From IMG/VR virus record IMGVR_UViG_3300025929_000019, positions 1 through 57,527 of that record: a DNA stretch of 57,527 nucleotides. The stretch is one strand, 5' to 3'. The stretch's first letter is position 1; each line of letters starts with the position of its first letter. This stretch comes from a virus. The notes beneath the pieces were generated by a model that made no database searches, was not told where the DNA came from, and worked only from the letters and a program-made list of their open reading frames with translations. Below, in pieces: positions 17,828 to 38,174 of the stretch. Both the position numbers and the translations under genes were made by a program.

Positions 17828-18615
17828 CCAGCGAACGATGGACGAAACTCGAGGACAACGCACACCGGGTAGCGTACGTGACGCTGCTACTCGTCGCGGA
17901 TGCCTTCGGCAATTGCGAAGGCGGCCAGTATCGCCTCGAGCGACTTTGGCGTGACTACCGGATCGAAAGCGATGGCGTGGATGAAACCGTTGCCGCCCTC
18001 ATGGGCCAGGACCTCGTCCGGCTCTACGAGTGCGACGGCAAACGCTACATCCACATCCCACGCTTCCGGCAGACCACTCGCTACAACAAGCGACTGCATC
18101 CACTGTCTCCATGGACCACTGAAGCGCAAAAACAATCACTTGCGAAAAATTCGCATGGTGAGCTACAGGTGGGCACCATGATTGCACATGTGCGCACGTG
18201 CCGAAGTGGTGTAGGTGTAGGTGTAGGTGTTGGTGAAGATGTTGGGGTAGGAGTAGGTGTTGGGGTTGGAGTAGGTGACACCCTCTTGCGCACGCCTGCA
18301 GCGCGCGCGGCAGGTGACCGGCGAGTTCGCAAGGCCAATGGCCACGATGCGGACCGCGACCCGGGATTTCTCGCCTTCTGGACCGCCTACCCGAGGAAAG
18401 ACAGCAAAGCCGAAGCAGCAAAGATCTGGGCCAAACTCAAGCCGTCGAGCGAGCTCGTCGAGCGGATGATCTCCGCCGTGACACGAGCCGCGACCTCGCC
18501 GGCATGGCTTCGCGACGGAGGGCAGTACATCCCGTACGCGTCGAAATGGCTCAACGGCAGGCGGTGGGAGGATGTCGGCTCATCCAACGAACCCGTCCTG
18601 GACGATCTGGTGTGA
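17794..18615 (+). CDS. O-like replication initiator
   Basis: 273 residues. The N-terminal domain (1-110) has a winged-helix look (YVTLLLVADAFGN, YRIESDGVDETVAALM). A linker of alternating Gly-Val follows at about 138-165. The C-terminal domain (185-260) contains FWTAYPRKDSKAEAAKIWAK, typical of O-like/DnaT-like helicase-loading proteins. Location next to the helicase supports an origin-binding and helicase-recruiting role. The DNA encoding the linker is a 6-nt repeat that may be the origin. Confidence 0.75.
   Translation: MPDRIIRDELLTSERWTKLEDNAHRVAYVTLLLVADAFGNCEGGQYRLERLWRDYRIESDGVDETVAALMGQDLVRLYECDGKRYIHIPRFRQTTRYNKRLHPLSPWTTEAQKQSLAKNSHGELQVGTMIAHVRTCRSGVGVGVGVGEDVGVGVGVGVGVGDTLLRTPAARAAGDRRVRKANGHDADRDPGFLAFWTAYPRKDSKAEAAKIWAKLKPSSELVERMISAVTRAATSPAWLRDGGQYIPYASKWLNGRRWEDVGSSNEPVLDDLV
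18208..18281 (+). repeat. GGTGTA-type hexanucleotide repeat within the initiator gene
   Basis: A 6-base period (GTGTAG, GTGTTG, GGGTAG, GAGTAG variants) runs for about 70 bases and encodes alternating Gly-Val. One GAAGAT unit breaks it. In lambda the origin iterons also lie in the middle of gene O, so this may be the replication origin. Whole-unit gain or loss would keep the reading frame. Confidence 0.7.
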
Positions 18616-26709: not shown

Positions 26710-27726
26710 ATGGACAACGTGCTTGACGTATTCAGCAGCGATGCATTCAGCTTCGTTGCGCTGACCGACGCGATCAACAAGATCCCGTTCGCGCCGAATC
26801 GCGCGAGCGTTGTCGTCGACTGGAATGAGCAAGGCGTTCCGGTCACGACCGTCGAATTCGAACAGATCGAAAACGTGCTCACGCTCGTCAACCCGAGCCC
26901 TCGCGGCGCGCCCGGCGAAACGCGGGCGAAACCGAAACGCCAGGTCGAGGTGATTTCGATCCCGCACTACGAACTCAATGGCGGAGTTGCCGCTTCTGAG
27001 GTGCAGGGCGTGCGCGCCTTCGGCCAGGGCAGTGTCATGCAGACCGCGCAGCAGAAGGTCGCGGAAGTCCAGCTCGTGCAGGCGAACGATCTCGACGCAA
27101 CGCTCGAGTATCAGCGTCTGGGCGCCATCAAGGGCATCGTGCTCAACGGCGACGGCTCGACGATGGTTAACCTGTTCACGAAGTTCAACGTGACGCCGCA
27201 GACCGAAGTCGACTTCAATCTCGATTCGACGGCAGACGACGGCGCGTTGCTGACGACCTGCACGCAGATCGTCCGCGGGGCCGCGCGAGCCTTGGGCGGC
27301 ACGCCGTTCACCGGCATCTACGCTTTCTGTTCGGACTCGTTCTGGGATGCACTGCTCTCGAACACGGAACGCCGCAAGACGTACCAGGCGCAGAACGCGG
27401 CGCAACTGCGCGACGGCGATGCCTTCGGGACGTACAGCTTCGGCGGCATCACGTTCGAGAACTACCGCGGCGGCGTGGGTACGGAAGAGAGCACGGCTTT
27501 CATCGAGGCCGACAAGGCGTATTGCTTCCCCGTCGGTGTTCCCCGTCTGTTCCGCACGGTCTATGCCCCCGCGGACTACTGGGAGACGGTGAACAGCGAC
27601 GGGTTGCCGCGTTACTCGCGACTCTTCCCCTGGGACAACATGAAGGGTGTCGGCATCGATACGCAAACCAACGCGATGTCGTACTGCACGCGCCCGCGCG
27701 CGCTGTTCAAGGGCAAGCTGACGTAA
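26710..27726 (+). CDS. Major capsid protein (gpE-like)
   Basis: 338 residues of the gpE family, at the expected place after the decoration protein. Visible markers are PFAPNRASVVVDWNEQGVP near the N-terminus, RAFGQGSVMQTAQQKVAE in the middle and the C-terminal DTQTNAMSYCTRPRAL. Builds the HK97-fold shell. A few bases separate it from the decoration gene. Confidence 0.92.
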   Translation: MDNVLDVFSSDAFSFVALTDAINKIPFAPNRASVVVDWNEQGVPVTTVEFEQIENVLTLVNPSPRGAPGETRAKPKRQVEVISIPHYELNGGVAASEVQGVRAFGQGSVMQTAQQKVAEVQLVQANDLDATLEYQRLGAIKGIVLNGDGSTMVNLFTKFNVTPQTEVDFNLDSTADDGALLTTCTQIVRGAARALGGTPFTGIYAFCSDSFWDALLSNTERRKTYQAQNAAQLRDGDAFGTYSFGGITFENYRGGVGTEESTAFIEADKAYCFPVGVPRLFRTVYAPADYWETVNSDGLPRYSRLFPWDNMKGVGIDTQTNAMSYCTRPRALFKGKLT

Positions 27727-27746
27727 CCGCTTGACCGGGAGCACGC

Positions 27747-27929
27747 ATGTCGGAAATAAGCACGCACGCGTTCAAGCTGTTCGAGTCCATCGATCAACGG
27801 CTTCAACGCATCGAGGCGCTCATGGGGCAGCTCGTGGAAGAGAAGGAACTGCGCGAGGCGATGATGCAGGCCGTCGTCGACATCAAGCAGCACGCGCAGG
27901 CGATCAAGGACGCTTTGCCAAGGGCGTAA
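27747..27929 (+). CDS. Small coiled-coil protein
   Basis: 60 residues, nearly entirely helical with heptad spacing (FESIDQRLQRIEALMGQL). The ATG follows the capsid stop by 20 bases and a terminator comes right after the gene. Unknown function; perhaps a head accessory protein. Confidence 0.65.
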   Translation: MSEISTHAFKLFESIDQRLQRIEALMGQLVEEKELREAMMQAVVDIKQHAQAIKDALPRA

Positions 27930-27931
27930 GT

Positions 27932-27951
27932 GCGCCGAGAGGCGCTTTTTT
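27932..27951 (+). terminator. Intrinsic terminator
   Basis: GCGCC-GAGA-GGCGC followed by TTTTTT. A clear rho-independent form with a 5-bp GC stem and six Ts, immediately after the small coiled-coil gene. Confidence 0.75.
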
Positions 27952-27973
27952 GCAATCACTGAAAGGAAAAAGC

Positions 27974-28225
27974 ATGGCCGCAATCGATGATTTCAAAGCT
28001 GCCGTCGCAGCGGAAGATACCCTGATCGACCAGGCAGTCGCATTCATCAAGGGCACGCCGGATGTCATTGCGGCGGCGGTCGCGCTGCAGGCGTCCAACG
28101 ACGATGCCGCGCTCGCGGCATTGCAGGCCGACGTGCAAGCGCACGCGGATGCGCTCACCAGTGCACTGCCGGCGCCCACCGTGACGCCGTCCACGCCAGC
28201 GGTCGAGCCAATTCCGACGGCGTAA
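27974..28225 (+). CDS. Small Ala-rich helical protein
   Basis: 83 residues. AAGGAAAAAG lies before the ATG. Helical and Ala-rich (ALQASNDDAALAALQADVQ), with a Pro/Thr-rich C-terminus (PTVTPSTPAVEPIPTA). Shares one base with the next start (TAATG). Confidence 0.65.
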   Translation: MAAIDDFKAAVAAEDTLIDQAVAFIKGTPDVIAAAVALQASNDDAALAALQADVQAHADALTSALPAPTVTPSTPAVEPIPTA

Positions 28226-28521
28226 TGTCAACGCAGGCGCAAATCGACGCGCGCAGCGCAGTGTTTGAGGCTGTGCGCGTCGGTTTAAACGTCGCCGCCG
28301 GCCAGTGGAATGCGATGGCGGCGGCGCTGAATGCTGCGCTTCCTGCCTTGCGCACGGATGGCGGATCGGACCCGCAGCCCTTGGTCGACGCATTGAACGC
28401 CATCGTCACGGTGGCGACGGCAGCGATCACGCCGCTGCACGCCGACATCGATGCGGCGGCGGCGATGGCGGCGAGCGATCCGCCGGCTGCGCCGACCAAT
28501 CTCGTCGCGACGCTCGCATGA
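28225..28521 (+). CDS. Small Ala-rich helical protein, similar type
   Basis: 98 residues, helical and Ala-rich with ALNAIVTVATAAITPLHAD and a SDPPAAPTNL ending. Resembles the preceding gene in composition and the two may be paralogues. Its last words recur at the start of the next protein (PAAPTNL), suggesting modular exchange. Confidence 0.65.
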   Translation: MSTQAQIDARSAVFEAVRVGLNVAAGQWNAMAAALNAALPALRTDGGSDPQPLVDALNAIVTVATAAITPLHADIDAAAAMAASDPPAAPTNLVATLA

Positions 28522-30953
28522 GCAAGCCCGCCCCGAAAAAGGTTCCGGCCGCGCCCACGAACCTCACCGCTGGAGTATCGATGAGCATTTCGCTCGCGTG
28601 GTCGCTATCGTCAGGAGCGACGAAGTACACGGTCTATCGCTCGACCGACGGCTCGCGCGGAGCGGCGCTCGGTTCCCTCACCGCACCGCCGTACGTCGAT
28701 ACCACGGCCGTCGCGGGAACGAGCTATACCTACGGCGTCACGGCGAGCAATTCGGCGGGAGAAAGTGCGCTGTCGGTACAGGTGCAGGCGGAGATCCCGG
28801 TGCCGGCTCCTTCGCCGACGCCGAGCCCAGCACCTGCTCCGAGTCCCTCGCCGAGTCCAGCGTCCGCTCCGACGCCATCACCGAGTCCCGCGCCCGCTCC
28901 GACGCCATCACCGAGTCCCGCGCCCGCTCCGAGCCCGACACCGACACCAGCCGGTGCTTTCGCGTGGTCTAAACTCTCTCCCGCTGATCCTTCCGTTGCC
29001 TTTGGTCCGTACGGCTTCTACTTCACGCCGGCCTGCATGTTGCCCGGATCGAAGATTCACCACGTCTGGGGCGGGACGTGGGAGTACGACGTCTCCGGTG
29101 TAGCAACTGCAACGCTGGTCAAGCCGACGCCACCGGGTAATCCCGAGAATCACGGCTGTGCCTATGTACCGGCGGAAAACGCCGTCTATTCCGGCGATGG
29201 CGGCCCGGATGGTTCGGTCAACATCGTTCCATCGCGGCGCTTTGACGTCGCAACGTCGACCTACGCCGATCTCCCGGCGGCGACGACGGCCGACGCCTGC
29301 CTGCTGTATGACCCGGCGCAAAACCGGCTGCTCTCGCTCGGCGGCTGGACGACCGGACAACCGCTGAAAGTGCGCCCGCTCGCAGGCACATGGCAGACGC
29401 TGCCGACGACCGTTCCCCCGATCACGACGGAAGCCGCGCGCATGACGTTCCTGCGGGCGAGCATCAGTTCGCAGGGTCGCGTCGGCGTTCTGGCCGACAA
29501 CGAAGAGCTGTATGAGTGGGACGGCGTTTCGACAGCCTTCACGCTGATGCCGACGACCGGCGCCAAGCCGCTGGCCTACTCGCTGTGTGTGCTGGACGAG
29601 ATCAATGATCGCTACGTCGCGTGGTGCGGCGCCAACGTCGTCGCGGGTGACAACAGCAATCCGCTCGGAGTTACGTGCATCCTGCCGCGTTCTACGTGGG
29701 CTTGGGAAAGCCTCGCGATTCTCGGTCCGCCGAAGCGCAACATGGCGAGCCAGGTCATGCTCGCCGACTCTGGCAACGTGTACTTGCTGTCGGACGGCGG
29801 CTACATCGAAATCTGGAAGTTGAGCGGAACCGCGTCAACGACCGTAACGCCTGCGCCCGCCCCTACACCGACAACGACGCCGACAACGCCGACACCGACG
29901 CCAACCACCACTCCCGCGCCGACCACAAGTGCGACAACGACGGGCAACTGGACCTCGCGTCCATTGCCGCAACTGAATGTCGATGGTTCACCGAACGGAC
30001 CGTTCACGGCAGGCTACGAGACGAAGCACGTCTGCGGCGTCAAGGTCACCGCAGCACAGGCCGCGAAGCTCGGATTGAAGCTCGCTGAGGACGGCATCGT
30101 GTTCATGGGCGGCGACTACGTCGGCGCGCCGCAGAACCAGTCGTACCGGCAGGAGGTGTGGTCGCACGGACTTACGTCGGGCGTGTGGAATCTGGAATGC
30201 GCCTACGATTCTCCCGCGCCCAGACCGATCAACCCGGACGCGATCGGCGTCCACAACGACATCGACCTGCGCGGCCGGATCGCGATGGTTCCCGGCATGA
30301 TCATGTCGCAGCCGAACGGCGCGGATGCGTGGGGATGGACGGGCGGCACGAACTGGACGCAGCTCACCAACGGCTTCCCCGGAACAGGGATGTTTCGCGG
30401 CGGGTGCTTCGACGCTGCCACCGGGCGCTGGATTTCCTTCCGACCCTCGGCAACACTGGGTCATACCTGCCGTGAATTCGATCCCGCGACATGGGCGATG
30501 ACGGCGGAAACGCCGTGGCCGCAGTTCGCGGGATTGAGTCTTTCCTACGAGCAGGGGCAGCCGTGCATCGTCGGCCGCTACGCGTATTTCCTCGCGAGCC
30601 ATACCGCCGACGGTCTGACCTACGACGTGTGGGCGCTGCGCTGGCATCTCGATAACCGGACGATCGAGCAGATTACTGCCCCTCCGGTTGCGAGCGTGAC
30701 GCCGGAAAGCACGCTGCTCGCGGCCTGCGGAACCAAGGTGGTGTTTCCGTACATCACCGGGCCGGAAGGTGTCGTGAACGGCGTTTATGTGCTCGATACG
30801 ACGACGCTGGTCTGGAGCCTTGACACGAGTCCAGCACCATCGGACCTCGCGATGAACTGCCATATCGCGCTGGGTGACGGAACGAGCTTCATGTGCGGCC
30901 GCGCATTCCAGACGCCGCACCAGACCTCCGAGTTCATCTACAGGCCGGCCTGA
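28518..30953 (+). CDS. FN3 / double propeller-like virion accessory protein
   Basis: 811 residues from the ATG overlapping the previous stop. Order: fibronectin type III-like domain (10-93; AWSLSSGATKYTVYRSTDGS, then SNSAGESALS); a Pro/Ser/Ala linker (93-146) from a DNA repeat at 28798-28955; a Kelch/propeller-like beta domain (150-440); a Thr/Pro linker (444-474); a second propeller-like domain (475-811). No catalytic motif is clear. Probably exposed on the head or at a vertex; could bind glycans. Domain calls are by pattern only. Confidence 0.65.
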   Translation: MSKPAPKKVPAAPTNLTAGVSMSISLAWSLSSGATKYTVYRSTDGSRGAALGSLTAPPYVDTTAVAGTSYTYGVTASNSAGESALSVQVQAEIPVPAPSPTPSPAPAPSPSPSPASAPTPSPSPAPAPTPSPSPAPAPSPTPTPAGAFAWSKLSPADPSVAFGPYGFYFTPACMLPGSKIHHVWGGTWEYDVSGVATATLVKPTPPGNPENHGCAYVPAENAVYSGDGGPDGSVNIVPSRRFDVATSTYADLPAATTADACLLYDPAQNRLLSLGGWTTGQPLKVRPLAGTWQTLPTTVPPITTEAARMTFLRASISSQGRVGVLADNEELYEWDGVSTAFTLMPTTGAKPLAYSLCVLDEINDRYVAWCGANVVAGDNSNPLGVTCILPRSTWAWESLAILGPPKRNMASQVMLADSGNVYLLSDGGYIEIWKLSGTASTTVTPAPAPTPTTTPTTPTPTPTTTPAPTTSATTTGNWTSRPLPQLNVDGSPNGPFTAGYETKHVCGVKVTAAQAAKLGLKLAEDGIVFMGGDYVGAPQNQSYRQEVWSHGLTSGVWNLECAYDSPAPRPINPDAIGVHNDIDLRGRIAMVPGMIMSQPNGADAWGWTGGTNWTQLTNGFPGTGMFRGGCFDAATGRWISFRPSATLGHTCREFDPATWAMTAETPWPQFAGLSLSYEQGQPCIVGRYAYFLASHTADGLTYDVWALRWHLDNRTIEQITAPPVASVTPESTLLAACGTKVVFPYITGPEGVVNGVYVLDTTTLVWSLDTSPAPSDLAMNCHIALGDGTSFMCGRAFQTPHQTSEFIYRPA

Positions 30954-31369
30954 TGATTGCACAGACCGCGTTCCATACCTATCGGGTAATGAATCAGTTG
31001 CAGCAGAACTTGACCGGCCTGCAACGCGACATCCGCTCCAACGCCGTGGCGTGGAAGGCGATGGCAACGGCGCAAAGTCCCGATGTCGCGACCCTGGCGC
31101 AATTCGCCAAGGACGCGGCGGCCTCGTATGAGACGCGGCTGGGCTGGGTGCTGACGTACAAGAACACGAGCCCGAACTGGCCGGCGGTGACGGCGATGTT
31201 CACCGCGCTCGGCGGAAACATCGCGGATGCGACGACGCTGTTCACGCAGATGAAGGCGGTTGCCGATCAGTTGGGCGCCGCGACCCTCACGACCTACGCG
31301 CAGATCAGTGCGGCGTGCGATCAGATCCTCGCGGCGGTGCAGGCGCCGGATTCGCTGTGGCCGGAATAG
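30953..31369 (+). CDS. Helical protein, unknown function
   Basis: 138 residues, overlapping the previous stop by one base (TGATG). All helical, with QLQQNLTGLQRDIRSNAVAW near the start. May be a partner of the large upstream protein. No family recognised. Confidence 0.6.
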   Translation: MIAQTAFHTYRVMNQLQQNLTGLQRDIRSNAVAWKAMATAQSPDVATLAQFAKDAAASYETRLGWVLTYKNTSPNWPAVTAMFTALGGNIADATTLFTQMKAVADQLGAATLTTYAQISAACDQILAAVQAPDSLWPE

Positions 31370-31674
31370 TCACGCAGGAACACGACCTGCCGAATCACCG
31401 TGTCGTCTCCATGTGGAGCGAGGCGGGCATCCAGTTTCGTTCGAACCTCCTGCTGGAACCGGGTGCCTCCATTCAACTGCACGCGCACAGCTACGATCAC
31501 GTCGCGATGCTGTTGCGGGGCGTGTTCGATGCGGTCGAGGTGACGCCGGATGGCGAACGTAAACAGTCGCGCTTGACGGCGCCGCAACGGATTACCATTC
31601 CTGCCGGACATCAGCATGGATTCACGCTGCTGGAAGGCGATCTCGGCGAAGTGCTCTGTATGTGGGGTGCGTGA
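31357..31674 (+). CDS. Cupin-like protein
   Basis: 105 residues from a GTG at 31357 inside the end of the previous gene (the exact start is uncertain). The single-domain cupin pattern is good: LEPGASIQLHAHSYDH (metal-binding His-Xaa-His), VAMLLRGVFDAVEV and ITIPAGHQHGFTLLEGD. Cupins are unusual in head-region modules. It may be an enzyme or a sugar-binding accessory protein. Confidence 0.7.
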   Translation: MAGIVTQEHDLPNHRVVSMWSEAGIQFRSNLLLEPGASIQLHAHSYDHVAMLLRGVFDAVEVTPDGERKQSRLTAPQRITIPAGHQHGFTLLEGDLGEVLCMWGA

Positions 31675-32279
31675 TGGCGTTGCCGCAAGGGCTCAATCTG
31701 CGCGCCAATCCAGGCTTCGTTACCGACGTCGGGGACGAGTTCTGGGTCGACGCAGGTGGCGCGTCCTATCCAACGACGTCGACGCAGGGCAACACTGTGG
31801 GCTGGGAGGTCGCTGCCGGCACGCTCGGGGCGCGCGATCGCAACAGTGGAAACGATCGTCGTCTTGCCGGCATCGATTTCACGACCGCGGCCAAGCAAGA
31901 CCTGCGCGTTGACCTCCCTTCGGTCGGGAGTTACGACATCCGGCAAGCGGCGGGAGACGCAACCTATTCGCAGTTGGCGAACGTGGAACTTTTCGACGGG
32001 TCGGTCAGCTTGGGCGTGCTGTCATCCGGGTCTACCGGCGCCGCTAATTCGTTCAAGGATGCGACGAATGTCGTTCGCACCGCTGCCGCATGGGCCGCGA
32101 ACAACGCTCCGGTTACGAAGACGTTCACGACCACGATCTGCCGGTTCCGCCTCGGCGACGGCGCCAACCTGAACGTGCTGGCGCATGCGCACATCGCGGC
32201 ATCGGCCGCGTCCGGCCCGTTTCCCCTGCCAGACCGCGGTCTGTTCAAGGATTCGCTGTCTACCCACCTTCGCATGTGA
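31674..32279 (+). CDS. Beta-rich protein, unknown function
   Basis: 201 residues; its ATG overlaps the cupin stop by one base. Beta-rich with Gly/Ser/Thr loops (VDLPSVGSYDIRQAAGD, then LSSGSTGAANSF). Looks like an exported or virion-surface protein. No family recognised. Confidence 0.6.
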   Translation: MALPQGLNLRANPGFVTDVGDEFWVDAGGASYPTTSTQGNTVGWEVAAGTLGARDRNSGNDRRLAGIDFTTAAKQDLRVDLPSVGSYDIRQAAGDATYSQLANVELFDGSVSLGVLSSGSTGAANSFKDATNVVRTAAAWAANNAPVTKTFTTTICRFRLGDGANLNVLAHAHIAASAASGPFPLPDRGLFKDSLSTHLRM

Positions 32280-32291
32280 AAAGGAGATTCG

Positions 32292-32543
32292 ATGCGCTAC
32301 GTGATCAAGAAACAAGGCGAGGGCTATTTCACCGAGATGGGCATCATCGAAACCAAGGCGGTGTACCTCAACGGCAACCTGATGGGACACGAGAACGTGT
32401 TCCGCCCGCTGTTCGAAGCGTTCAAGCCGCAACAGGGGTCGCACTTCGACACCGAGCTGGACGCGAACGAACAGATGGCCGACGCACGCTTCGGCGGCCC
32501 GGCGTCATTCGCCGATTGCGTTGTCGAGGCCACCGAAACGTGA
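32292..32543 (+). CDS. Small acidic phage protein, unknown function
   Basis: 83 residues: MRYVIKKQGEGYFTEMGIIE, an alpha/beta layout, acidic end. AAAAGGAG before the ATG. A terminator lies downstream. Confidence 0.6.
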   Translation: MRYVIKKQGEGYFTEMGIIETKAVYLNGNLMGHENVFRPLFEAFKPQQGSHFDTELDANEQMADARFGGPASFADCVVEATET

Positions 32544-32566
32544 GCGCCTGATGGGCGCACGCTCCA

Positions 32567-32587
32567 GCCGCCGCGTGCGGCTTTTTT
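32567..32587 (+). terminator. Intrinsic terminator
   Basis: GCCGC-CGCGT-GCGGC then TTTTTT. Ends the small accessory gene run, preceding the next structural gene by about 35 bases. Confidence 0.75.
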
Positions 32588-32622
32588 ATCGCCGCATTTC
32601 CCAATCGAAGGAGTAATCGAAA

Positions 32623-33105
32623 ATGTTCATCGGCCCGGTCTACATCCTCACCAACAACGGCGTGTCGATCTCGACCGCGATCTCGGCGCTGCAATGGAAG
32701 CCCGGCACCAATGGGCCGATCGAGGTGCTGCGCGCGGCGCTGACACAGGCGACATCGACGACCTCGACGCAAGTCGCGGCGGGACTGATCCGCAAAAGCG
32801 CGGCGGCGACGGTGACGCTCGGCGTCGCCGGCACGCACCTGCTGAAGCAGAACCCGGTCAATCCGGCGTCGGATGCCTCGCTCGGCACGTCGGCAACGGG
32901 AATTACCGCTTCGGCCGAGGGCACCAACGGCGAGCTGTCGATCCAGCGCGGATTCAACATCCTCAACGGTTTCGAATGGCTGCCGACGCCCGAAGAGCGC
33001 GTGCTCGCCCCGCAGGGAGGCTTCCTGGCGCTCACGTTTCTCTCCGCGCCGCCGTCGGCGACCTGGCACGCGACGATCGTGGCGCGCGAGCTGCGCGGAG
33101 GCTGA
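32623..33105 (+). CDS. Probable virion structural protein
   Basis: 160 residues, strongly beta (GPVYILTNNGVSISTAISAL, then LGVAGTHLLKQNPVNPAS). AAGGAG is 11 bases before the ATG. I recall similar proteins in phage structural regions; it may be a head-surface or completion protein. No firm function. Confidence 0.6.
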   Translation: MFIGPVYILTNNGVSISTAISALQWKPGTNGPIEVLRAALTQATSTTSTQVAAGLIRKSAAATVTLGVAGTHLLKQNPVNPASDASLGTSATGITASAEGTNGELSIQRGFNILNGFEWLPTPEERVLAPQGGFLALTFLSAPPSATWHATIVARELRGG

Positions 33106-33110
33106 AACGC

Positions 33111-33425
33111 GTGGCGGTCGGCAAGCGCTTTCGTCACCTCGACGAAATCTACAAGCGGCGTCTGCTCGCAGACGAGACGCCGCGCCGCGGCGATATCGCG
33201 CGCGTGGTGCGCGACCATCATCGCAGCGAGACCGGCATGCTGGTGCGCGTGGTGAACGATCCGCACGAATGCGAGGTGCACTGCCACGAGTGCGGGCAGC
33301 GGGTCTACGGCTTCTTCGTCGAGGTCGAGCCGACCGAGCCGATCCTGATCCCCGGCACCGGTCTCGTCTGTGCCGGCCCGTACTTCTATCCGCTCGAGTG
33401 GCTACGTAGGGCGAACCCGCACTGA
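33111..33425 (+). CDS. Zinc-ribbon-like protein, unknown function
   Basis: 104 residues from GTG 33111 (GGAG 10 bases upstream). Residues 48-60 contain HECEVHCHECGQRVYG, a Cys/His cluster that could bind zinc. A basic N-terminus precedes it. Unknown role; sits just before the large repeat protein. Confidence 0.6.
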   Translation: MAVGKRFRHLDEIYKRRLLADETPRRGDIARVVRDHHRSETGMLVRVVNDPHECEVHCHECGQRVYGFFVEVEPTEPILIPGTGLVCAGPYFYPLEWLRRANPH

Positions 33426-36157
33426 TGGGCGTCTATCGTTCCGATCCGCCGGTCAGGCTGTCGCCGCCGCCGCTTGCGCCCTTCGCGCCGGCCGCAGCGG
33501 CCTATCTGCAGCAGCAAGGTCCGCGCGCCCTGCAACAGACGCAGTGCTACTTTCGCGACTACCCGGCGCGCGACACGTGGGCGCGTCAGGAATTATTGCC
33601 GGGACAAGCACCATTTGCGCCCGCCGCAGCCGCGTTCCCGCCGGCCTTTGGGAGCCGGTCGCTGACGCAGAAGGCGGGGCTCTACTGGCGCGATCCGACC
33701 GACCTGTACCTGGCGGCCGCGAAGATCCTTCCGCCGGCGCCGTCCTTTTCCTTCCCCGGCATTGCGCTGCAGCCGGTCGCTCCGCACCTGCGCGAGCCGT
33801 CGCGTGCGCCGCAAATCGAGCCGCTGCTGCCGAAGGTTGCGCCGTATCCAACCACGCGTACGACGCAACCCCTCAGCGCAGTGGGGCCAGACCTCGCGAA
33901 TCCGCTCAACCTCAATTTGCAGTTGCTCTACAACCCGGCGGCATTCCAGGGTGATCTTGTCACCGGCACGCCGTTCACGGCGGACACCGGCAGCAATGTC
34001 ACCGTCAGCAGTAACGGCGCGAGCGTCGGCCATCAGTTCTTGGACGGGCAGTTCGCGTACTGGCCCAGCTCGATCATTACGGACATCGGAACCGGCGACT
34101 ATACGGTGACCATGCTTGTTAGGCCAGACAGTTTCTCGGGAAACATTCATAACGAGACGGCGTTTTCGACGGTGGATGCCAGCGATGCCAGCGGCATCCA
34201 GTTCAACCTCAACGACGACACGTTCGGGGGCGCCAATCAGTTCGGCGTTCAGGAAGCGACAGTAGGCACGCTGCACAACTCGCCGTCGCATGTGACATTG
34301 GCGACAGGAACGTTTTACGTCCTGGCCGCACGGCGGCGCAGTGGCGCCGGACTCATCGACGTAGCTGTGAACGGTTCCTACACAGCCGACGGCGATCCGG
34401 GCAGAGCTTTCGAGGGCGGCTCGATCGTACTTGGTACGAATCGCGGGCCCGGTGGCTTGTACGGAAAATGCACGATCGCTTTTCTGCACATCGTTGCGAC
34501 CGCGGTAAGCGACGCGCAGCTTGCGAGCCTCGCCACCAATCCATGGCAGGTGTTTCCGGCCGCCGACCCGTACGATTTCCTCGGCGTGGCGCTGCCGCCG
34601 ACCGCCAGCTACGCCCGCGACGCGCGCGAGCCCAGCCGGGTCGCGCAACAGCGCGCCTTGGTCCCCGCCGCATCGATCTTCGCGCCCGCGGATCCAGTCT
34701 ACAACTTCGCCGGCCCGACGTTGCAGAGCGTAGCCGCGCACGTGCGCGAGCCGCAGCGCGCGCGATGCGACGCGGCGAAGGTCCTGCCGCCGGTTCCGGA
34801 TTACGTTCTGCCGGCGACGCTGCCGGCGGCGTGGCTGCGCGAGCAGGGCCGCGCGCGCCTGACGGCGGCGCTGCTCACGGCCTCGAGCGACGACCCGTTG
34901 CCGGCCGCGAACATCCAGCGTTACGACGCGCGGCGCGAGTGGCCGGCGCTGCGTGCGACGGTGAATTTCACCGCGGCCGCCGACAGCCTGCCGCCATCGA
35001 CGATCGCGCGCTACGACGTGCGCGAAGTTCGTGCGCTGCCGATCGCGTACGACTTCACGCCTTCGGCCGACACGCTGCCGCCGCTGAGCATCGCTCGCTA
35101 CGACGTGCGCGAGACGCGCGTGCAAAGCTTGGGCACGACGGTGTTTCCCGAAGCGCAATTCACCTACGCGCCGCCCAACCAGTCCGCCGCCTGGCTGCGC
35201 CCGCTCGAGGCGCGCCGCGAATGGACGCCGCTTGCCGCGTGGTTCGCCGTTTTTGCGCCGGCCGATGCGTTCTATCCATTCGCCGGCGTTGCGCTGCAAA
35301 GCGTGGGCGCCTTCGCGCGCGGGCAGCCGCAGTATTGGGAGATGCGACCGTTGCAGCCATGGGCGGGATTGTTCGCACCGCCCGATCCGGCATACGTGTT
35401 CGCGCTGCCGTTGCCCGCCATTGCAGCGCGTCCCGCGCGCGCGCCGCGCGCATTACGCGTGAACCTCGTAGCGCCGCCGGAGGGCCCCATTCCGGGCGCC
35501 ACGCAGCCGTTGACCGCGCACCTGCGCGCCGCCGCGCGGGCAGTCTCGCCGACTGCGGCACATACGCCAAGCGGCGATACGGCGTTGCCCCCATCCGCGC
35601 TGCCGCGCGCGCACGGGCGAGAGGGGACGTCACCGCGACTCGCGTCTCCCAGCGCGGTCTATGACGCGGCCTTCGTGTTCGCGCCCGTCGTAGCGACGCC
35701 GGCAGCGCATCTGCGCGAGCGCGCGCTGCAGGCGCCGGCGCCGACTCGGTCTGCGCCGAGCGAGGCGATTTTCATACCAGCGGCCTCGATCGCCACAGCC
35801 TACCTGCGCGACGCACGGCCGGCGCGCCAGGCGCCCACGCAAGTCGCGCCGACGCCCCCGTTCGTGTTCGCGATGGCGCTATCGGCAACGCAGGCGGGCT
35901 ACCTGCGCGAGCAGGAATCGATCGCCTATGCGTATGCACGTCGCCGCTACGCCACCTTCCTGCGCCGCATCATCGATCCGGCGAGCGTCTGCCTTGCGCT
36001 CGCGCTGCCTGACGCCGCTTTGGCAACGGCGCTGCCGGCAGTTGACCTAAGCGCAGCGGTTCCGGCTATCGACGCGCAGGCGGCGCCTCCGAGCGTCGCG
36101 CTGGAAGCGGCGACGCCGAGCGTCACGCTCGAGGTAATCGTGCTCGAGGACTGCTGA
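33425..36157 (+). CDS. 910-residue tandem-repeat protein with an embedded LamG-like domain
   Basis: The protein is built from about 15 degenerate units of ~35 residues, each centred on a hydrophobic-Arg-Glu anchor (HLREPSR, HVREPQR, WLREQGR, YDVREVR, YLREQES) after a Pro/Phe/Ala-rich lead (FAPADP, FPGIALQ). At about 155-375 the units are interrupted by one beta-sandwich domain of the LamG/ConA-lectin type, ending SLATNPWQVFP, as in phage fibre lectins. The C-terminal ~60 residues are Ala/Val-rich. Overlaps the preceding stop by one base. I do not recognise the repeat; a virion fibre or whisker is plausible. Confidence 0.6.
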   Translation: MGVYRSDPPVRLSPPPLAPFAPAAAAYLQQQGPRALQQTQCYFRDYPARDTWARQELLPGQAPFAPAAAAFPPAFGSRSLTQKAGLYWRDPTDLYLAAAKILPPAPSFSFPGIALQPVAPHLREPSRAPQIEPLLPKVAPYPTTRTTQPLSAVGPDLANPLNLNLQLLYNPAAFQGDLVTGTPFTADTGSNVTVSSNGASVGHQFLDGQFAYWPSSIITDIGTGDYTVTMLVRPDSFSGNIHNETAFSTVDASDASGIQFNLNDDTFGGANQFGVQEATVGTLHNSPSHVTLATGTFYVLAARRRSGAGLIDVAVNGSYTADGDPGRAFEGGSIVLGTNRGPGGLYGKCTIAFLHIVATAVSDAQLASLATNPWQVFPAADPYDFLGVALPPTASYARDAREPSRVAQQRALVPAASIFAPADPVYNFAGPTLQSVAAHVREPQRARCDAAKVLPPVPDYVLPATLPAAWLREQGRARLTAALLTASSDDPLPAANIQRYDARREWPALRATVNFTAAADSLPPSTIARYDVREVRALPIAYDFTPSADTLPPLSIARYDVRETRVQSLGTTVFPEAQFTYAPPNQSAAWLRPLEARREWTPLAAWFAVFAPADAFYPFAGVALQSVGAFARGQPQYWEMRPLQPWAGLFAPPDPAYVFALPLPAIAARPARAPRALRVNLVAPPEGPIPGATQPLTAHLRAAARAVSPTAAHTPSGDTALPPSALPRAHGREGTSPRLASPSAVYDAAFVFAPVVATPAAHLRERALQAPAPTRSAPSEAIFIPAASIATAYLRDARPARQAPTQVAPTPPFVFAMALSATQAGYLREQESIAYAYARRRYATFLRRIIDPASVCLALALPDAALATALPAVDLSAAVPAIDAQAAPPSVALEAATPSVTLEVIVLEDC

Positions 36158-36158
36158 C

Positions 36159-36461
36159 ATGGCGGACGCGACAAGCATCGTGCTGGGTACGGCACCTCGG
36201 CTTCGCGCGACGTTTCGCAACGCCGACGGCGATCTCTTCGATCCGAGCGTGGTGCGCTTCAAGGTCAAGGGCCCCGACGCCACTATCGAGACGTTCGTCT
36301 ATGGCGTCGATCTTGACGTGGTGCGGTTAAGCGTCGGCGCCTACGAGCGCAAATACCTGCCAGCGACGGCGGGCGAGTACTGCTGGCGCGCCGAGTGCGA
36401 GGGCGACGACTGGGGCGCGAGCGAGGGCGAGATTGACGTTGACGGCGGATGCTTCGCATGA
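36159..36461 (+). CDS. Small connector-region protein
   Basis: 100 residues, beta-rich (DPSVVRFKVKGPDATIETFV, then LPATAGEYCWRAECEG). The family resembles proteins found beside phage fibre or connector genes. Coupled to the next gene (ATGA). Confidence 0.6.
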   Translation: MADATSIVLGTAPRLRATFRNADGDLFDPSVVRFKVKGPDATIETFVYGVDLDVVRLSVGAYERKYLPATAGEYCWRAECEGDDWGASEGEIDVDGGCFA

Positions 36462-36772
36462 GCATCGACGACAACGAGGCCGCGGTGTGGCAGACGTTGC
36501 AGGACGAAGGCTGGTCGGTGCCGGCGGTGTCGAAAGGGCGCAGCGCCTTCGTGATGTTCGTCATGCCGGGCGGGGTCACACCGAACGGCGCGCGCTCGAC
36601 CGATTACGAGATGACCTACTGGACCGCCGACCTGCCGACGCTGAAGGAGGGCGACCCGATCACCGTCGCCGGCGTGAAATACAAGGTTCGCGACACGCCC
36701 GACGTCACCGCCATGCCGGGCTACAGCCGCACCGGCAACTTCAAGCACGCACTGCTCACGGCGCTCAAGTAG
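36458..36772 (+). CDS. Head-tail joining protein (FII-like)
   Basis: 104 residues in the position of lambda gpFII. Contains DYEMTYWTADLPTLKEGDPI and VAGVKYKVRDTPD, matching head-tail joining proteins. Would bridge the head completion complex and the tail terminator. Confidence 0.7.
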   Translation: MSIDDNEAAVWQTLQDEGWSVPAVSKGRSAFVMFVMPGGVTPNGARSTDYEMTYWTADLPTLKEGDPITVAGVKYKVRDTPDVTAMPGYSRTGNFKHALLTALK

Positions 36773-37192
36773 ATGACCGGTTACGAGACCGTCCTGGCCT
36801 CGATTCTGGGCCGGTTGACGGCTGCGCCGAAAACGTGGGCGGACGACATCCGTCGCGCGCACCTGACGGCGCCTCCGAAGAGCGCGGGACGCGTCGTGCA
36901 TCTGATCGACGGCGAGGACGCGCCCGACAAGGGCGCGCGGCGCGACTGCACGCAACGCGACGGCGCCTTCAGCCTGGCGCTGTTCGTGCGCAGCGACCTT
37001 GGCGTCAGCGCCGCTGACCCGATGAAGATCGAGGTCATGCGCCGTCTCGCGCCGGACTCGGCGCCTTATCCGGACGGCGTCGCCGTGAAGCCGGGACGCG
37101 TCGTCCCGAGCGCGAACCTCGCGGACAACGATGCCATTCGCATCGACATGGACTTCACCTTTTGCTATCCGGCCACGGACTGGACGCTATGA
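36773..37192 (+). CDS. Tail terminator/completion protein
   Basis: 139 residues in the gpU position, next to the joining protein and upstream of the tail tube gene. Beta/alpha layout with DNAIRIDMDFTFCYPATDW at the end. Starts directly after the previous stop. Confidence 0.65.
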   Translation: MTGYETVLASILGRLTAAPKTWADDIRRAHLTAPPKSAGRVVHLIDGEDAPDKGARRDCTQRDGAFSLALFVRSDLGVSAADPMKIEVMRRLAPDSAPYPDGVAVKPGRVVPSANLADNDAIRIDMDFTFCYPATDWTL

Positions 37193-37415: not shown

Positions 37416-38174
37416 ATGTTTTTCCAAGGACGCGGTAACGTCACGCTGTACCCGCTCGATGCGAATCTCCTCATCGACGGCCCGCCCATCCAGTTCTGCA
37501 CCGACACCTTCGTCGTCACACCGAATGTCACGACCTTTTCGCACATCAACATGTGCGGCGCGGTCGACGTCGAGGACGCGCGCGGCATCAAGAGCCAGGC
37601 GGTCGACGTGCAGATGACCACCGCCAGCGTCGAGGACAAGAAGTTCGCCGTCGGCGTGTTCGGCACGGTCAATGCCGCGGGCTCGCCGGGAACGGTCACC
37701 GGTGAAGTGCTGCCGACCGGCATGGTTGACGGCGACGTCTGGTTCGCCGGCGGCAAGACGCGCCATCGCGCCCTGACAGCGGTGGTCATCACTGACAGCG
37801 CTTCGCCGCCGGCAACGCCAGCGTTGACCACGAACTACACGGTCGATGCGGCGAGCGGCAAGATCACCTTCGTCGACGTCGCGACCTTCGTGCAGCCGTT
37901 CGTGCTCGCCTACGGCCACACGGACCCGGCGTCGGTGTCGATGATGACGGCGGGGCAGAAGGAGTATTTCTTCAACTACGAGTTCCTGAACCGGCAGGCG
38001 TCGAATGCGCCGGGCAGCCTCGAGCTATATCGCACGCGCTTCGACCCGGCGGCGAATCTGGATTTCCAGTCGCCCGAGCTGCAGGAGATGGACCTCAAGG
38101 GCTCGTGCCTGGCGGACACGTCGCGCTCGAACACGGACACGGTGCTGGGCCAGTTCGGGCGCCGGATCCTGTAG
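37416..38174 (+). CDS. Major tail tube protein
   Basis: 252 residues. Beta-rich with TFSHINMCGAVDVEDARGIK near the start, AVDVQMTTASVEDKKFA, and a C-terminal FQSPELQEMDLKGSCLAD. It stacks as hexamers around the tape measure. Precedes the tail chaperone pair as expected. Confidence 0.85.
   Translation: MFFQGRGNVTLYPLDANLLIDGPPIQFCTDTFVVTPNVTTFSHINMCGAVDVEDARGIKSQAVDVQMTTASVEDKKFAVGVFGTVNAAGSPGTVTGEVLPTGMVDGDVWFAGGKTRHRALTAVVITDSASPPATPALTTNYTVDAASGKITFVDVATFVQPFVLAYGHTDPASVSMMTAGQKEYFFNYEFLNRQASNAPGSLELYRTRFDPAANLDFQSPELQEMDLKGSCLADTSRSNTDTVLGQFGRRIL

Follow-up and report, generated by a model that had tools for sequence, protein, structure and literature searches.

A repeat-shaft protein with an internal LamG domain, encoded between the head and tail genes of a lambda-like siphovirus: a candidate accessory virion fibre

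Between the head genes and the tail-connector genes of a siphovirus lies an open reading frame, at 33425-36157 on the plus strand, whose 910-residue product is built largely of short tandem repeats into which a single lectin-like domain is set. What would such a protein do, and where would it sit on the particle? A preliminary description of the locus proposed a rod that carries a lectin-like domain and whose gene stands between those for head and tail connector, and went on to suggest a new type of head fibre. We analysed the gene within the whole 57,527-nucleotide stretch of viral DNA that carries it (the window; IMG/VR record IMGVR_UViG_3300025929_000019). The first part of that proposal is borne out by the sequence; the second is taken up at the end.

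An old array of tandem repeats

The start ATG of the gene shares bases with the stop codon of the preceding ORF (TGATGG), and the next gene begins at 36159. For the analysis the protein was divided into 17 units, of which 15 are well supported and two, at the N-terminus, weaker. A typical unit reads [F/Y]-x-F-x-x-x-x-L-x-x-x-A-x-[H/Y/W]-[L/V]-R-E-x-x-R, then about ten residues, then L/V-x-P-P, and the units are rich in proline, alanine and arginine (the rod is 14.5% proline). The anchors singled out at first, HLREPSR and YDVREVR, are present, the wider set comprising HLREPSR, HVREPQR, WLREQGR, RYDVREVR, RYDVRETR, HLRERAL and YLRDARP. A 33-column profile built from the 15 units, with boundaries chosen by us, matched 15 sites in the window, every one of them inside this ORF. 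When units were left out in turn and scored against shuffles of themselves, 14 of the 15 gave p<=0.01 (the unit at residues 656-687 gave p=0.056), and the ungapped self-similarity of the rod lay about 10-13 SD above shuffles. The tandem repeats are thereby established and the original count of about 15 stands, but a period of about 35 residues was too regular, the units being about 29-43 residues long and their spacing ranging from 29 to 44. Among the long window ORFs tested, strong internal repetition was confined to this one and to an fn3/Kelch-like ORF with a Pro-rich linker.

Along the protein, all on the plus strand, the two weak N-terminal units (residues 20-63 and 64-107; 33482-33745), both beginning FAPAAAA, were read from the sequence and fall below profile significance. 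The third unit, FSFPGIALQPVAPHLREPSRAPQIEPLLP (33746-33844; profile 18.7 bits, E 1.7e-4; leave-one-out p=0.008), is the last ahead of the lectin-like domain, beyond which profile matches define a main shaft of 14 tandem units at residues 379-849 (34559-35971). A C-terminal tail of 8-9-residue Pro/Val/Ala repeats, PAVDLSAAVPAIDAQAAPPSVALEAATPSVTLEV (residues 850-910; 35972-36154), was likewise read from the sequence; it recalls strand-like repeats seen in other LamG proteins.

The region of the gene is 69% GC and an antisense ORF of 568 residues (33593-35299) overlaps it, which is what one might see if the ORF were a high-GC artefact with fortuitous repeats, although nothing supporting the antisense ORF was found. 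Conservation between units, however, exceeds that of a codon shuffle most strongly at codon position 2 (+0.16, as against +0.08 and +0.05), and differing codons are used at 169 of 397 identical-residue pairs, from which it follows that this frame encodes protein and that the repeats are of long standing; the DNA-level repeats are imperfect. The units have diverged anciently under selection on the protein. Since, in addition, the repeats stand about 10-14 SD above shuffles and the LamG homology described below falls in the same frame, the artefact is refuted and we attach practically no probability to it.

The repeat family had gone unrecognised in the preliminary description, and it stays so after profile searching: the profile that recovers the 15 window sites, which served as a control, gave no match in 48 records and 398 genomes. 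With the full-length protein as query, Pfam, PHROGs, phages and IMG/VR yielded nothing useful, and a pattern search for paired RYDVRE anchors gave zero matches. Within the limits of those searches, the repeat sequence appears to be new to every collection searched. A 1102-residue protein in another record (L128:644-3952) has 28 WPNPRG/WPVPKG anchors, mostly 32-42 residues apart, and so resembles the rod in its Pro/aromatic anchors at similar spacing and, with terminase and portal genes nearby, in its head/packaging neighbours; no LamG was noted in it. It has no PHROG match, and a first pattern search for WPNPRG gave zero matches. Homology between the two repeats was rejected (hhalign probability 0.1%, no HMM cross-matches).

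A LamG module set between two units

The lectin-like domain occupies residues 141-378 (33845-34558, plus strand), from TRTTQP..NPL to NPWQVF. Direct hmmscan of the window protein did not find PF13385, and the region returned nothing useful against PDB sequences and phages. A DNA pattern derived from the ending NPWQVF and scanned over IMG/VR gave at least 120 stretches, and 108 phage modules ending NPWQ[ILV]F, taken from the IMG/VR matches with the window protein excluded, were built into a LamG profile. Residues 141-377 score 104.3 bits against this HMM, the consensus of which matches PF13385 (E 2.6e-25) and, in tblastn, found nothing among isolated phages. As the window protein has no direct Pfam match, its link to PF13385 runs through this intermediate phage LamG family.

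Structure prediction, put forward in the preliminary description as a check, gave a divided result. Modelled by AlphaFold without relatives, the domain reached a pLDDT of 31; with 90 relatives it is predicted to form a jelly roll in which 100 residues have pLDDT>=90, but the rod units, including those flanking the domain, were modelled with low confidence (pLDDT about 35-60). The best PDB match of the predicted domain in Foldseek was 5hon_A (E 2.3e-9; TM 0.71 by target length), corresponding to domain 4 of the GH43 arabinanase AbnA in an entry described as a complex; the predicted jelly roll is closest to a sugar-binding domain, and its best viral structure matches were phage ConA-like proteins. 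Toxin receptor-binding domains also appear in the Foldseek list, where the likeness is one of jelly-roll fold only. Judged by profile homology and the model together, we take the LamG/ConA-like fold to be real. In the alignment with the 90 relatives the QP and NPWQxF columns show no or almost no variation, the conservation of NPWQxF being by construction because the relatives were gathered by that pattern.

The domain begins and ends where its relatives do (start TxQP...NPL, end NPWQ[ILV]F), which argues that it is a complete module lying between two repeat units. With the domain removed in silico, the anchors on either side of it come to lie about 40 residues from each other, a spacing within the usual range, again as expected if it sits between units. 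An inserted lectin-like domain had been anticipated correctly, but its position had not: it follows the third unit, the first that is well supported, rather than the fourth or fifth.

An extra block between head and tail genes

The window belongs to a lambda-like siphovirus, and its genes run in the order TerS, TerL, Ad1, portal, protease, gpD-like decoration protein, lambda gpE-like major capsid protein (MCP; 26710-27726, plus strand; phrog_29, E 3e-44) and then, after an extra block at about 27731-36157, head closure, tail terminator, major tail protein and tape measure. The block consists of a small gene pair, an fn3/Kelch-like protein, a small cupin-like protein (31315-31674; Cupin_2 E 1.6e-4, below cut-off), several unknowns and, last, the gene of interest. 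The fn3/Kelch-like protein (28518-30953, plus strand) combines, on weak domain matches, an fn3-like part (phrog_7440, E 4e-10), a Pro-rich linker and a Kelch-like propeller (E 9e-6); a 30/60-nt DNA repeat lies in its linker at 28815-28951. Immediately downstream of the block, at 36159-36461 on the plus strand, is a small and possibly Ig-like protein (phrog_18294, E 0.0025), a weak candidate for a partner or adaptor, for which tblastn gives a weak match (E 0.05) in a Microcystis phage, to a protein that itself matches Big_1 below cut-off. Head-closure and tail-terminator genes follow at 36449-37192 (plus strand; Phage_attach E 2.9e-5, phrog_10473 and phrog_179), and then the major tail protein with its Ig-like domain at 37416-38174 (plus strand; phrog_807, E 2.5e-37). 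The slot of the gene, at the junction of head and tail modules, is thus established. Elsewhere in the window, 50849-51526 matches phrog_4603 (alpha-2,3-sialyltransferase, E 5e-42) and has an MptE-like match, possibly denoting a phage sugar-modifying enzyme, and at 18207-18277 GGTGTA recurs in tandem with periods of 6/12/18 nt.

Of the relatives spanning the region, the closest (L132; MCP 58% and portal 55% identical) has about 1.6 kb between the MCP gene and its homologue of g38338, against 10.6 kb in the window, and none of its ORFs in that interval matches the LamG or rod profile. A second relative (L002) likewise has its MCP gene closely followed by connector and tail genes, with no gene of the rod-LamG type. 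The block is missing from both and we therefore regard it as optional accessory cargo. The same absence from close relatives, together with the cupin-like gene that shares the block, would also suit a protein that never joins the virion, being instead secreted, retained at the cell surface or carried as a lysogen moron; the overlapping start within a head-tail operon and the virion-type architecture argue the other way, and we consider such a role very improbable.

In cyanophage Cy-LDV1 the equivalent slot is occupied by an 803-residue protein annotated as a tail fibre (BLASTP found no detectable relation between the small 36159-36461 protein and Cy-LDV1 g09). That annotation, and the occurrence of LamG domains in phage tail proteins as well, would favour a tail or side-tail fibre, or another tail-borne adhesin, whose gene merely happens to stand in the head-tail junction. 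The Cy-LDV1 label is nevertheless an annotation alone, large genes at the usual tail-tip position follow the tape measure (from 43131 onwards, with no family match), and genes for the NPWQ-type LamG module cluster, among the matches listed, with head and packaging genes; we therefore hold a tail location to be unlikely.

A probable head- or neck-borne fibre and its counterparts

Among the matches listed, NPWQ-LamG genes in IMG/VR are followed downstream by genes such as those for terminase large subunit, head protease, portal, scaffold, adaptor and neck proteins, and their upstream neighbours include portals and major head proteins; this survey relied on simple gene calling and PHROG matches for part of the neighbours, without a base-rate control. 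Significant tandem repeats occur in the C-termini of 50 of the 60 relatives that, among the matches listed, extend at least 120 residues past the LamG. Their shaft periods are mostly about 20-22 residues, some doubled at 44, and the shaft sequences often look mutually unrelated, which suggests that one set of shaft repeats can give way to another without loss of the lectin module. Proteins combining LamG with a repeat shaft beside head genes thus appear, on sequence grounds, to be common in IMG/VR phages. The window protein shares with them (L028, L055 and L078 being examples) the LamG module, the tandem-repeat shaft and the head/packaging neighbours, and differs in having its LamG inside the shaft and in its longer, Pro/Arg-rich units of 29-43 residues. 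Among the matches listed, the relatives' LamG is nearly always N-terminal, whereas that of the rod protein starts at residue 141, and L028 is the only clear relative with more than 100 residues ahead of its first LamG. Its protein (L028:3-3632), with repeats of about 25 residues (ALxxTADIxGxGxL) on both sides of the LamG, has the closest architecture among the matches listed.

The nearest described counterpart is gp76 of phage phiCbK, a 2799-residue protein encoded near head genes, enriched in Gly, Ala and Pro and with a central ConA-like domain, which has been proposed as a head filament yet was undetected in virions (PMC3556154), so that the precedent is itself a prediction. In gp76 (JX100813) the LamG lies at residues 1157-1307 with repeat regions on both sides, and the gene stands between those for the MCP, gp68, and the tail tube, gp92. 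It therefore resembles the window protein in its internal ConA-like domain flanked by repeats, its slot between MCP and tail tube genes and its low-complexity composition. It is, however, three times longer, with Gly-rich N-terminal repeats and C-terminal IGTI/V-P repeats; its LamG is only weakly alike (25 bits), and the rod profile gave no match to it, so that there is no sequence homology outside the LamG. The dispensable head-borne fibre of phi29, gp8.5, which aids adsorption (PMC7602432), has no LamG; its shaft is a coiled coil of helices, a helix-turn-helix supercoil, standing on a beta-tulip base, from which the rod, with 14.5% proline and a low-confidence model, may differ.

Agrobacterium phage 7-7-1 offers a further comparison. 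Its capsid fibres contact and wrap flagella, and along the capsid itself there runs an extended linker protein (PMC12796354). We noticed that 7-7-1 gp108 (L138:5597-6619), which was detected in virions by mass spectrometry (PMC3517404) and is encoded just upstream of terminase and portal genes, is made of tandem repeats of about 21 residues, GDWxYPxYSxxG, and is a candidate for the capsid fibre of that phage. It is like the window protein in being a proline-containing tandem-repeat protein of the head module, its repeats being aromatic/Pro, but it has 340 residues, units of about 21 residues (GDWxYPxY) and no LamG; its repeats have no sequence similarity to those of the rod and the two are not homologous. 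The linker protein of 7-7-1 brings to mind another arrangement, in which the repeats would form not a rod but a flexible strap, its units docking on capsomers or on the decoration protein so that the chain staples the capsid surface and displays the LamG. Units rich in Pro, Ala and Arg, modelled at low confidence (and possibly disordered) around a conserved short anchor, and a phage that encodes a gpD-like decoration protein would suit a strap, but no matching repeat or capsid-docking motif was found and low pLDDT is also expected of a repeat without homologues; we regard the strap as distinctly improbable.

The head-gene neighbours of the LamG modules, the repeat shafts of the listed relatives, and the layout and slot of phiCbK gp76 together lead us to favour an accessory, probably head-borne, adhesive fibre. 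We put at about 0.55 the probability that the rod-LamG-rod protein is an accessory virion fibre, most probably one borne on the head or neck, with a glycan-binding LamG as a side knob. In such a fibre the tandem units would form an extended shaft, and the LamG jelly roll, flanked by a unit on each side and close to the N-terminus of that shaft, would project as a knob. The knob would bind a glycan of the host surface or of an appendage, and the fibre would thereby offer the particle an initial, reversible grip ahead of the tail's binding to its own receptor. A head or neck fibre is accordingly still the best-supported reading of the locus, but the type is not new: by analogy with phiCbK gp76, fibres of this kind had already been suspected in other phages (PMC3556154). 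The novelty appears to lie in the repeat sequence and in a LamG that is embedded in the shaft instead of preceding it at the N-terminus.

It is conceivable, although we think it rather unlikely, that LamG proteins with short repeats encoded in head modules are generic capsid fibres of many tailed phages, in which unrelated repeats of 20-45 residues serve as interchangeable shafts and the lectin module is shared. If this were true, it would account for unidentified capsid fibres such as those of phiCbK, with 7-7-1 using a form that lacks LamG, such as gp108. The capsid-fibre proteins of flagellum-binding phages are at present either unidentified (7-7-1; PMC12796354) or known at the level of candidates (phiCbK; PMC3556154), and an architecture that joins a LamG ending NPWQ[ILV]F to unrelated repeat shafts in a head-gene slot may supply concrete candidates for them.
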